Positions 30,783 through 34,992 of a stretch of 64,000 bases of DNA are shown one piece after another. Made by a program: the position numbers and the translations under genes. The notes beneath the pieces are model-generated. The model worked only from the letters and a program-made list of their open reading frames with translations, had not been told where the DNA came from and searched no databases. Source of the DNA: Halobaculum marinum (lineage in GTDB: Archaea; Halobacteriota; Halobacteria; Halobacteriales; Haloferacaceae); assembly GCF_029338555.1 (NCBI RefSeq), contig NZ_CP119989.1, positions 2,666,001 through 2,730,000 of the forward strand, in the 5' to 3' direction. Position 1 is the first letter of the stretch, and each line of letters starts with the position of its first letter.

Positions 30783-32975
30783 ATGGGCCGACGAAAGAAA
30801 ATCGTACAGGAATGTGAGGAACTGATGGACGAGCCGGAGCAGATCCGGAACATCGCCATCGCTGCTCACGTCGACCACGGGAAGACGACACTGACAGACA
30901 ACCTGCTCGCCGGTGCGGGCATGATCGCCGACGCGGACGAGGCGACGCAGCTCGTGATGGACACCGAGGAGGACGAGCAGGAGCGTGGGATCACCATCGA
31001 CGCGGCGAACGTCTCGATGACCCACGAGTACGAGGACGAGAACCACCTGATCAACCTGATCGACACCCCCGGCCACGTCGACTTCGGTGGCGACGTGACC
31101 CGCGCGATGCGCGCCGTCGACGGCGCGCTCGTCGTCGTGGACGCCGTCGAGGGCGCGATGCCCCAGACGGAGACGGTCGTCCGGCAGGCGCTCCGCGAGG
31201 GCGTCAAGCCGGCGCTGTTCATCAACAAGGTCGACCGCCTCATCTCCGAGCTCCAGGAGGGGCCCGAGGAGATGCAAAAGCGCCTCCAGGACGTCATCGC
31301 CGACGTCAACGAGCTCATCCGCGGGATGACCGAGGAGATGGACGACATCACCGAGGACTGGACGGTCTCCGTCGAGGAGGGTACCGTCGGGTTCGGCTCG
31401 GCGCTGTACAAGTGGGGCGTCTCGCTCCCGTCGATGCAGCGCACCGGCATGTCGTTCGCCGACATCATCGAGCTGGAGCAGGACCACAAGCGGCAGGAGC
31501 TCCACGAGCGCACGCCGCTGTCGAACGTCGTGCTCGACATGGTCGCCGAGCACTTCCCGAACCCGCTCAAGGCGCAGCCGTTCCGTATCCCGCGCATCTG
31601 GCGCGGCGACGACGAGTCCGACATCGCCGAGGACATGCGGACGGTCAACCGCGAGGGCGACATCGTGTTCATGGCGACCGACATCGGGATGGACCCCCAC
31701 GCCGGCGAGATCGCGACCGGTCGCGTCTTCTCCGGCACGCTCCGCAAGGGCCAGGAGCTGTACGTCTCCGGCACCGCGGGCAAGAACCGCGTCCAGTCCG
31801 TCGGGATCTACATGGGCGGCGAGCGCGAGGAACTCGACCGCGGTGTCCCCGCAGGGAACATCGCGGCCGTCACCGGCCTGAAGGACGCCATCGCTGGCTC
31901 TACGGTCTCCGACAAGGAGATGACGCCGTTCGAGTCGATCGAACACATCTCCGAGCCCGTCATCACGAAGTCCGTCGAGGCGAAGTCGATGGACGACCTG
32001 CCGAAGCTCATCAAGACGCTCCAGCAGGTCGCGAAGGAGGACCCGACGATCCGCGTCGAGATTAACGAGGACACGGGCGAGCACCTCATCTCCGGACAGG
32101 GCGAGCTCCACCTCGAGGTCATCACCCAGCGCATCCAGAAGAACCAGGGCATCCCGGTCCAGACCGGTGAGCCGATCGTCGTCTACCGCGAGCAGCCCCA
32201 GCAGGAGTCGCGCGAGGTCGAGGGCGTCTCGCCGAACCGCCACAACAAGTTCTACATCACCGTCGAGCCGCTCGCCGACGACATCGTCGAGACGATCCAG
32301 CTCGGCGAGGCCTCGATGAGCATGCCCGAACTGGAGCGCCGCGAGGCGCTGCAGGACGCCGGCATGGACAAGGACACGTCCCAGAACGTGGAGCACATCC
32401 ACGGGACGAACATCCTCATCGACGACACGAAGGGTATCCAGCACCTCAACGAGACGATGGAACTCGTCATCGAGGGCCTCGAGGAGGCGCTCGACGACGG
32501 TCCCCTCGCTGCCGAGCCCGTCCAGGGTGCGCTGCTGCGCCTGCACGACGCGCGTCTGCACGAGGACACCATCCACCGCGGTCCGGCGCAGGTCATCCCC
32601 GCCGTCCGCGACGCCGTCCACCGCTCGCTCATCGACGGCGAGGTGCGCCTCCTGGAGCCGATCCAGGACGTCCGCATCGACGTGCCCAGCGAGCACATGG
32701 GCGACGCCTCCGGTGAGATCCAGGGTCGCCGCGGCCGCGTCGACGACATGTACCAGGAGGGTGACCTCATGGTCATCGAGGGCATCGCGCCCGTCGAGGA
32801 GATGATCGGCTTCTCCTCCGACATCCGCTCGGCCACCGAGGGCCGCGCCTCCTGGAACACGGAGAACGCGGGCTTCCGTGTGCTCGTGGACAACCTCCAG
32901 CGCGAGAAGATCATGGAGATCCGCGAGCGCAAGGGCATGAAGCTCGAACTGCCGCAGTCGATCGACTACATCTGA
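30783..32975 (+). CDS. fusA: Translation elongation factor EF-2
   Basis: 730 residues, full length. GTPase motifs: [16 protein letters not shown] (G1), DTPGHVDF (G3) and INKVDR (G4). The diphthamide site is the His near residue 598 in [15 protein letters not shown]. It drives translocation on the ribosome. Haloarchaea keep it near rps12-rps7; here several unrelated genes lie between them. Confidence 0.97.
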
Positions 32976-33045: not shown

Positions 33046-33170
33046 TCCGACCGTCACGTCCGACAGCGGGGGCGCCGTCGAACCGTCACCGGTGCGGCGC
33101 GAACGCCGACGGATCGTCGGCGATCCCACAGGATCGTTCACACACTGGCAAGCATCGCCACGGTAGAAGG

Positions 33171-33178
33171 CTTATCAC
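33171..33178 (+). promoter_or_regulatory. TATA box before the ACT-hom leader ORF
   Basis: CTTATCAC, identical in its context to the box at 28633, is centred 27 bases before an ATG at 33202. It predicts transcription starting about 200 bases upstream of the ACT-domain gene. Confidence 0.65.
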
Positions 33179-33201
33179 CTCCCCGTCTACACCGATGTGA
33201 T

Positions 33202-33399
33202 ATGCCAAGTGGCACGACCCACGGTCGGCGCGACGGCTGCAGACAGCACCCCCAGCCCCGCACGCCGATCACAATTATTGGGTCGAGAGCCACACCCCCC
33301 ATCGGGACACGCTCGGTCGTCGCCGGACGCGACGGCGTCGACGCCGCCGCAGTGGCCGACGCGACCACCCAGGGGCCGTTCGAACGGAGGGCACGGTAA
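33202..33399 (+). CDS. Possible 65-residue leader ORF before ACT-hom
   Basis: An ATG placed exactly for leaderless initiation opens a 65-codon frame that stops one base before the ATG of the ACT-domain gene. The product is basic (about ten Arg) and unlike haloarchaeal proteins. Its middle, RTPITIIGSRATPPIGTR, is rich in Thr and Ile and uses codons rare in this genome (ACA, ATT, ATT, AGA). It could be a leader peptide that senses Thr or Ile, or simply a transcribed leader. An AT-rich CAATTATTG at 33270-33278 may instead be a second TATA box. The 425-base gap after EF-2 holds nothing else. Confidence 0.3.
   Translation: MPSGTTHGRRDGCRQHPQPRTPITIIGSRATPPIGTRSVVAGRDGVDAAAVADATTQGPFERRAR
33386..33390 (+). 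promoter_or_regulatory. Shine-Dalgarno of the ACT-domain gene
   Basis: GGAGG ends ten bases before the ATG at 33401. Many genes in this window lack such a site, so its presence supports a long leader or translation after the upstream ORF. Confidence 0.6.
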
Positions 33400-33400
33400 G

Positions 33401-34021
33401 ATGCCCTCCGAGTCGACGCCAGCCCCCGACGAGCCGTCGGTGGACGCCGACGCGGACTCGGCAGTCGAGGGCGAGGACCCCGAGACGGACGGCGGCCACG
33501 AGACGGAACTGCAGGCGCACACGATCAGGCTCGAACTCGTCGACGAACCGGGCCAACTGCTCGCGGCGCTGAAGCCAATCGCCGACAACGGCGCGAACCT
33601 CCTGTCGATCTTCCACGAGCGCGGGAGCCTCACGCCGCGGGGACGCATCCCCGTCGAGGTGGACATCGAGTGTCCGCCCGCGCGCTTCGAACCGATCCTC
33701 GAGGACCTTCGCGAGCAGGGCGTCAACGTGATCCAGGCGGACGCAGAGGAGTACGGCGACGAGGTGACGCTGATCCTCGTGGGCCACCTCGTCGACACCG
33801 ACCTGTCGGACACGCTCAAGAGCATCCAGGACCGCTCGGGGGCCTCGGTCGCCGACATCGACCTGTCGGCCCCCGCGGGCGCCGGGTCGGAGGCGCACTC
33901 CAGCGCGCGACTCCGCCTGCGGGCGCGCGCCGGACAGATCGCCGACGTCGTCGCGAGCGTGCGCGAGGTGGCCGCCGAGAAGGACATCCACGTCATCGCG
34001 CCACTGGAGGGCCAGCCATGA
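33401..34021 (+). CDS. ACT-domain amino acid-binding regulator
   Basis: 206 residues. A 40-residue acidic tail precedes two ACT-like modules, the first with TIRLELVDEPGQLLAALKPIADNGANLLSIFHERG and the second with ARLRLRARAGQIADVVASVREVAAEKDIHVI. ACT domains bind amino acids; next to homoserine dehydrogenase it probably gives allosteric feedback that bacterial enzymes carry in a C-terminal ACT domain. It overlaps hom by 4 bases (ATGA). Confidence 0.88.
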   Translation: MPSESTPAPDEPSVDADADSAVEGEDPETDGGHETELQAHTIRLELVDEPGQLLAALKPIADNGANLLSIFHERGSLTPRGRIPVEVDIECPPARFEPILEDLREQGVNVIQADAEEYGDEVTLILVGHLVDTDLSDTLKSIQDRSGASVADIDLSAPAGAGSEAHSSARLRLRARAGQIADVVASVREVAAEKDIHVIAPLEGQP

Positions 34022-34992
34022 AACTGGCCGTCCTCGGTGCGGGCGCGGTCGGGCGGTCGGTCGCCGAGTTGGCGGGCGAGTACGGGCACGAGGTGACGGC
34101 GCTGGCGGACTCCTCGTCCGCCGTCGTCGACGACGGCGGGGTCGACGTGGCCGCCGCGCTCGAACGCAAAGACGCGGGCGAGTCGCTGGGCGACGCCGAG
34201 CCGCGGGACGCACTCGTGGGCGAGTACGACGCGCTAGTGGAGGCGACGCCGACGACGCTGGGCGACGCCGAGCCAGGGTTCTCGCACCTGCGGACGGCGC
34301 TGGAGCGCGACAAGCACGTCGTGCTCGCGAACAAGGGGCCGGTCGCCGAGCGGTACGCGGACGTGCGTGAACTGGAGGCCGAGTCCGACGGCGACGTGTA
34401 CTTCGAGGCGACCGTCGGCGGCGCCATCCCGGTGTGTGCGACCGTCGACGACCTCGGCGCGAAGCACGTCTCCGCGGTGCGGGGCATCCTCAACGGCACG
34501 GCGAACTTCGTGCTGTCGCGGATGGCCGCCGAGGGGCTCGACTACGACCACGTGCTCGCGGAGGCACAGGACCTGGGCGTCGCGGAGGCTGACCCCTCCT
34601 TCGACGTGGAGGGCACCGACGCGGCGCTCAAGTGCGTCATCGTCGCGAACGTGCTCCGGGAGGCCGACTGCGACTCGCTCGACGACCTCCGGGAGGCCGA
34701 GGTGACCCTCGCGGACGCCGAGGTAGAGGGAATCCGGAACATCCCCGGGAGCGCGCTGGAGTTGGCCGCCGAAGACGGGCGGACCGTCCGCCTCGTCGGC
34801 GAGGCGACGCGCGAGCGCGTGAGCGTCGGCCCGCGCCTCGTCCCCGAGCACGGCACCCTCGCGGTGACGGGGACGCGCAACATCGTCGAAATCGACCACG
34901 AGTACGCCGGCAACCTCGCCATCTCGGGGCGGGGCGCCGGCGGCGAGGAGACCGCCAGTGCGGTGCTGGCCGACGTGGCGCGACTGGAGTAG
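34018..34992 (+). CDS. hom: Homoserine dehydrogenase
   Basis: 324 residues. N-terminal Rossmann GAGAVGRS at 7-14, then ANKGPVAE and EATVGGAIPV, RGILNGTANFVLSRM and the catalytic region FDVEGTDAALK. It reduces aspartate semialdehyde to homoserine, feeding Thr, Met and Ile synthesis. The protein lacks a C-terminal ACT domain; the preceding coupled gene supplies ACT modules, which suggests a split regulatory subunit. Confidence 0.93.
   Translation: MKLAVLGAGAVGRSVAELAGEYGHEVTALADSSSAVVDDGGVDVAAALERKDAGESLGDAEPRDALVGEYDALVEATPTTLGDAEPGFSHLRTALERDKHVVLANKGPVAERYADVRELEAESDGDVYFEATVGGAIPVCATVDDLGAKHVSAVRGILNGTANFVLSRMAAEGLDYDHVLAEAQDLGVAEADPSFDVEGTDAALKCVIVANVLREADCDSLDDLREAEVTLADAEVEGIRNIPGSALELAAEDGRTVRLVGEATRERVSVGPRLVPEHGTLAVTGTRNIVEIDHEYAGNLAISGRGAGGEETASAVLADVARLE

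Follow-up and report, generated by a model that had tools for sequence, protein, structure and literature searches.

The ACT-domain gene and the homoserine dehydrogenase gene in the window (the whole 64,000-nt stretch of Halobaculum marinum DNA analysed) are preceded by a short reading frame that we consider, with a probability of roughly 0.7, to be a Thr/Ile-codon leader peptide of the attenuator type controlling this operon; it probably acts through translation coupled to the ACT gene. Judged from the sequence, it comes closest to the attenuator leaders of bacteria (thrL, ilvL, trpL), which combine a promoter-proximal ORF, codons for the end products of the pathway and an adjacent RNA structure. 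The conservation of the leader among haloarchaea, with its rare Thr/Ile codons at the foot of a hairpin, suggests that amino-acid supply is sensed by ribosome pausing, as in bacteria.

The leader lies in the 425-nt gap between the elongation factor 2 (EF-2) gene (stop at 32975) and the ACT-domain gene (start at 33401). The features of the locus are as follows.

33171–33178, + strand: TATA box, CTTATCAC, 31 nt 5′ of the leader ATG; invariant in 11 of 11 Halobaculum species
33202–33399, + strand: leader ORF of 65 codons with a predicted leaderless start; stop TAA at 33397–33399; frame intact in 11 of 11 congeners
33209–33293, + strand: outer helix around the hairpin; 33209–33213 pairs with 33289–33293, and 33215–33221 with 33279–33285
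33223–33270, + strand: inner RNA hairpin; 33223–33232 pairs with 33259–33270, and 33235–33239 with 33253–33257; ends directly 5′ of ACA
33268–33279, + strand: control codons ATC ACA ATT ATT (Ile Thr Ile Ile), with the conserved rare ACA; Thr/Ile replacements in other clades
33386–33391, + strand: Shine-Dalgarno-like GGAGGG for the ACT gene, within the end of the leader ORF; position kept in congeners
33401–34021, + strand: ACT-domain protein, 206 aa; PF01842 (E 7e-6), slightly below the curated cut-off
34018–34992, + strand: homoserine dehydrogenase, 324 aa; PF00742 (E 3e-48) and NF004976, the latter above its cut-off

The first-pass annotation had described a TATA box ahead of a 65-codon frame that stops one base before the ACT gene. 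Both were recovered at the positions above, with the single base 33400 separating the leader TAA from the ACT start, and the 65-aa peptide reads MPSGTTHGRRDGCRQHPQPRTPITIIGSRATPPIGTRSVV...ERRAR. Since the distance between TATA box and ATG is fixed at about 31 nt, the transcript is predicted to be leaderless, starting at or beside the leader ATG. The ACT-domain protein is similar to the C-terminal ACT domain of threonine ammonia-lyase, and the end of its gene overlaps the start of the homoserine dehydrogenase gene by 4 nt.

When the sequences 5′ of the ACT gene were aligned for 11 Halobaculum species, the leader frame proved unbroken in every one, at many lengths between 57 and 69 codons and with indels in multiples of three. 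In all 11, the ACT ATG follows the leader stop directly or after a single nucleotide, and the 31-nt spacing between TATA box and leader ATG is unchanged. The spacer 3′ of the EF-2 gene is poorly conserved across the genus, and a near-invariant block that includes the TATA box starts near position 33135. The 9 nt immediately 5′ of the leader ATG vary freely; the 36 nt that follow the ATG are almost invariant. No synonymous change was found in leader codons 1–13 among the 11 species, whereas 154 of 199 codons vary in the ACT gene, 97 of them only synonymously; constraint on the start of the leader therefore acts both on the nucleic acid and on the frame.

The leader is not confined to Halobaculum. 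We gathered 120 distinct ACT loci of haloarchaea, and 82 of them, with many other genera among them, carry a homologous leader frame upstream of the ACT–homoserine dehydrogenase pair; at these 82 loci a TATA-like hexamer lies 29–33 nt (almost always 31 nt) before the ATG that opens the ACT-coupled frame. Leader length ranges from 34 to 69 codons. The position of the leader stop relative to the ACT start was a +4 overlap (ATGA or GTGA) at 68 loci, 0 or −1 at 13 and +1 at one, so that the stop overlaps the next start or lies within a few nucleotides of it, as in termination-reinitiation. The class with the 4-nt overlap alone comprises 21 different lengths (34–67 codons), all in frame. For a single sequence, the chance that a shuffled leader lacks an internal stop was 0.68, to be multiplied by 1/3 for the frame; the 82-locus set is therefore not a product of chance, even with shared ancestry. 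As in an attenuator, a short ORF thus stands between the promoter and the biosynthetic genes, and the conservation of its frame argues for its translation. Recognisable variants were present among the remaining loci (L025, L027 and L133), and another (L020) has a leader without the exact overlap. In several other families of haloarchaea the ACT start is overlapped, by 4–8 nt, only by minimal upstream ORFs (uORFs) of about 9–20 codons, which have neither hairpin nor Thr codons (L126, L136, L078, L083, L084, L141, L149 and L150–L154). A search of relatives for further copies of the leader peptide scored well only at the ACT locus, weak matches elsewhere looking like chance, and plasmid records gave zero matches.

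Threonine and isoleucine derive from homoserine and are the end products of the pathway fed by homoserine dehydrogenase, and the leader contains a segment rich in both (33262–33279, ACG CCG ATC ACA ATT ATT). The rarity of ACA and ATT noted by the first-pass annotation was borne out: in 40 long genes of the window they make up 3.0% of the Thr codons and 3.8% of the Ile codons, respectively. One alignment column is Thr in 77 of the 82 leaders, and 76 of these 77 Thr codons are ACA. The share of ACA among Thr codons was 119/169 near the control codon, compared with 35/439 elsewhere in the leaders, where Thr is mostly encoded by ACG, and 28/992 in the ACT genes. The enrichment of ACA, together with the common 4-nt overlap across 21 lengths, is far beyond chance. 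Thr accounts for 16.5% of leader residues; reading the same DNA in its other two frames gives about 6%.

The neighbours of the ACA codon differ by clade and remain Thr or Ile in many (TT, TTT, ITII, ITIT and TIIT). Apart from Halorubrum, most Haloferacaceae have ACA ACA at the site; Halobaculum has ATC ACA ATT AT(T/C), L018 has ATT ACA ATC ACA, L012 has ACA ACA ACT and L025 has ATG ACA ATT ATT ACG (TIIT). L133 has ATA ATT without ACA, and many Halorubrum retain just one or two Thr codons there (ACA GGN ACG or ACA GGN CCN). The codons at this site thus specify end products of the pathway, as attenuator control codons do, with Ile neighbours in Halobaculum, L018, L024 and L025.

Folding of the first 99 nt of the window's leader gave a minimum free energy of −40.3 kcal/mol (z −4.50), and none of 200 shuffled sequences was as stable. 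Between the outer helix and the inner hairpin lies an unpaired junction (33271–33278, ACA AUU AU) that exposes the control codons. This position is shared: the 3′ end of the hairpin lies 0–4 nt before ACA in 73 of 76 leaders, over which z averaged −1.63 (hairpin) and −1.54 (outer duplex). Taken as a whole, the leader folds strongly in Halobaculum and to a moderate degree in the other leaders (mean z −1.49 versus −0.62 for control windows). No single RNAalifold consensus over all clades was obtained, because the register of the helices differs between clades, and hairpins were therefore compared clade by clade and by position. In the set without Halobaculum, six core hairpin pairs were present in 85% of cells, versus 24–50% in slid controls. 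Double compensatory changes were few in this set, so the case for covariation rests mainly on differing sequences that form a hairpin at the same site across clades. The AT-rich stretch at 33270, for which the first-pass annotation had offered a second promoter as an alternative, coincides with the unpaired junction and its control codons; we reject such a promoter because most relatives have ACA ACA GGN or similar there, which is not AT-rich.

To assess generality, the regions upstream of thrC, ilvB, trpC and hisG were inspected. Isoleucine, valine and leucine are the end products of the ilvB pathway, and in Halobaculum ilvB is preceded by a leader rich in Val, Leu and Ile (MTTRSAPTAVRPAPAERVVALLAGVAGIVGA followed by a stop; L186 up to position 1253, and L195 in the window's own genome). 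Of 46 ilvB loci, 18, from other genera, have a leader ending in ...IIVG(A) or ...LIIVGA(A) before the stop (L264–L266, L268, L270, L271, L274–L278, L282, L285, L288, L185, L188, L197 and L199). A typical end is CTC ATT ATT GTA GGG GCC TAG, with the stop inside a GC hairpin such as GTAGGGGC...GCCCCTAC. This frame looks like a branched-chain amino-acid leader peptide. With two leaders of matching amino-acid content in the same genomes, it is less likely that the ACT leader is a product of chance or serves a purely mechanical function. In the same genomes no leader was found upstream of thrC, which has a plain leaderless start, and no Trp- or His-rich leader was found upstream of trpC and hisG. 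We regard it as fairly likely that haloarchaea regulate several amino-acid operons by control-codon leaders, with Thr(/Ile) at ACT–homoserine dehydrogenase and Ile/Val/Leu at ilvB. A mini-ORF (MTHTDGGPRR and a stop) also overlaps the ilvB ATGA in Halobaculum (L186, just 5′ of position 1359), so that a second upstream ORF is possible for ilvB.

Haloarchaea initiate efficiently on leaderless mRNAs. The short ORF could serve as a plain coupling uORF that passes ribosomes on to the ACT start by termination-reinitiation and senses no amino acid, the rare codon merely setting ribosome speed after the hairpin. The stop/start overlap at 68 loci agrees with such a role, as do the minimal uORFs of other families, with neither hairpin nor Thr codons, and the coupling known in Haloferax volcanii (PMC12548453). 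However, it leaves unexplained the Thr identity of the codon, its Ile neighbours in Halobaculum and its relatives, and the Ile/Val leader with matching amino acids upstream of ilvB. We consider it unlikely.

Two further explanations, each very improbable in our judgement, place the function in the RNA or in the peptide itself. A riboswitch-like RNA inside the uORF would bind a metabolite such as threonine, with ACA as part of the binding junction instead of a sensing codon; the stable fold, the unpaired ACA at a helix junction and the constraint at the nucleotide level are what such an RNA would show. Yet a riboswitch should have conserved aptamer nucleotides outside its helices and match a known class. 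ACA aside, hardly any unpaired position is shared across clades, and the helices shift register. The reading frame is always kept, the replacements at the site are Thr/Ile codons, and Rfam gave no match to the leader at its curated gathering thresholds. The conserved frame and the N-terminal motif MxxGTxxxRR could instead reflect a functional small protein encoded upstream of the ACT gene, but the C-terminal part has no conserved sequence, the length varies from 34 to 69 aa, and what is conserved at the N-terminus is the nucleotide sequence, at the place where the helices lie. Conservation over most of the length with synonymous changes tolerated, as expected of such a protein, was not observed, and searches of Pfam and NCBIfam gave no match.

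For the Thr/Ile leader peptide, the conserved frame, the start spacing, the stop/start overlap, the rare Thr codon and the hairpin with its position are read from the sequences, and we infer its translation, the pausing under starvation, the switching step and the sign of the switch. Because transcription would start at or beside the leader ATG, a ribosome would load on a leaderless mRNA, read through the hairpin and then meet the Thr/Ile codons immediately after it, which number from one to about five and in almost every case include ACA. Scarcity of Thr-tRNA, and in Halobaculum also of Ile-tRNA, would make the ribosome pause at these control codons, and the pause would change the fold of the leader RNA and the translation of the ACT gene, and perhaps also the continuation of transcription. 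The switch is somewhat more probably at the translation of the ACT gene than anywhere else; a switch at transcription through loss of coupling is a weaker candidate, and a location elsewhere seems rather doubtful. Termination in haloarchaea is thought to use FttA instead of Rho, and transcription polarity through FttA when translation lags is a possible alternative read-out; FttA-dependent polarity has been mentioned as likely for archaea (PMC12548453). We also folded each of 76 leaders with a masked ribosome at every codon. Unmasking of the ACT ribosome-binding site by a stalled ribosome was dropped as a switching step, since a ribosome at the control codon had zero effect on it in the model, and opening of the leaderless 5′ end was dropped since no effect specific to that position appeared. 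These results weigh against the attenuator reading, as do the failure to find a terminator-like site, the many Halorubrum sites with only one or two Thr codons, the moderate folds and few double compensatory changes outside Halobaculum, and the minimal uORFs of several other families.

In bacteria, leader peptides are a classic means of sensing amino acids. The likeness to an amino-acid leader such as thrL, proposed by the first-pass annotation, gained support from the conserved frame, the near-invariant rare Thr codon and its Thr/Ile neighbours. Both the attenuator of the E. coli thr operon and the haloarchaeal leader have a short promoter-proximal ORF with Thr and Ile codons beside RNA structure, before genes of the Thr/Ile pathway. 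However, the haloarchaeal leader is archaeal, has a predicted leaderless start, carries its hairpin before the codons and overlaps or abuts the first gene with its stop; no terminator-like site was seen, and there is no sequence homology. It also uses the rare ACA instead of a major Thr codon, whereas thrL uses eight ACC codons for Thr (PMC1183508). The ilvB leader likewise resembles the bacterial ilv leader peptides in having Ile, Val and Leu codons at a GC hairpin, but is archaeal, with the rare codons ATT ATT GTA and a stop within the hairpin.

Coupled gene pairs of H. volcanii share the ATGA/GTGA stop/start overlap and a Shine-Dalgarno-like motif (PMC12548453), whereas here a structured leader with conserved rare Thr/Ile codons takes the place of a normal-sized upstream gene. 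Short ORFs in haloarchaeal transcript leaders have been described in a start-site study of H. volcanii, which listed 16 uORFs in long 5′-UTRs, two of them before aminoacyl-tRNA synthetase genes; the genes that follow include those for tryptophan–tRNA ligase and pheS, among others (PMC4983044, Table 2). Unlike our set, that list holds no ACT or homoserine dehydrogenase gene among the 16 and comes with no analysis of control codons; the ACT leaders of Haloferax in our set, which come from species other than H. volcanii and carry ACA ACA, are too short (35 aa, about 104 nt) for its 150–250 nt window (PMC4983044). A literature search for archaeal leader-peptide attenuation found no case, and subscription journals, preprints and older papers may contain one.

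If the Thr/Ile leader reading is true in haloarchaea, including the genetically tractable Haloferax, it would point to either independent invention or deep ancestry of attenuation, and would offer a direct test of how a ribosome pause is read out on leaderless mRNAs with FttA-type termination. If several operons are controlled in this way, Archaea would have ribosome-mediated attenuation that works on leaderless mRNAs with translational coupling. The analysis adds two leader families (ACT and ilvB), both so small that gene annotation probably overlooks them.

Upstream of the leader, Halobaculum keeps the approximately 30 nt 5′ of the TATA box (33142–33170) almost unchanged (CACTGGCAAGCATCGCCACGG, which contains TGGC-N7-GCCA); at the same place, repeats resembling GGCAACGACTGCC occur in other genera. 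This element is possibly a binding site for a regulator.
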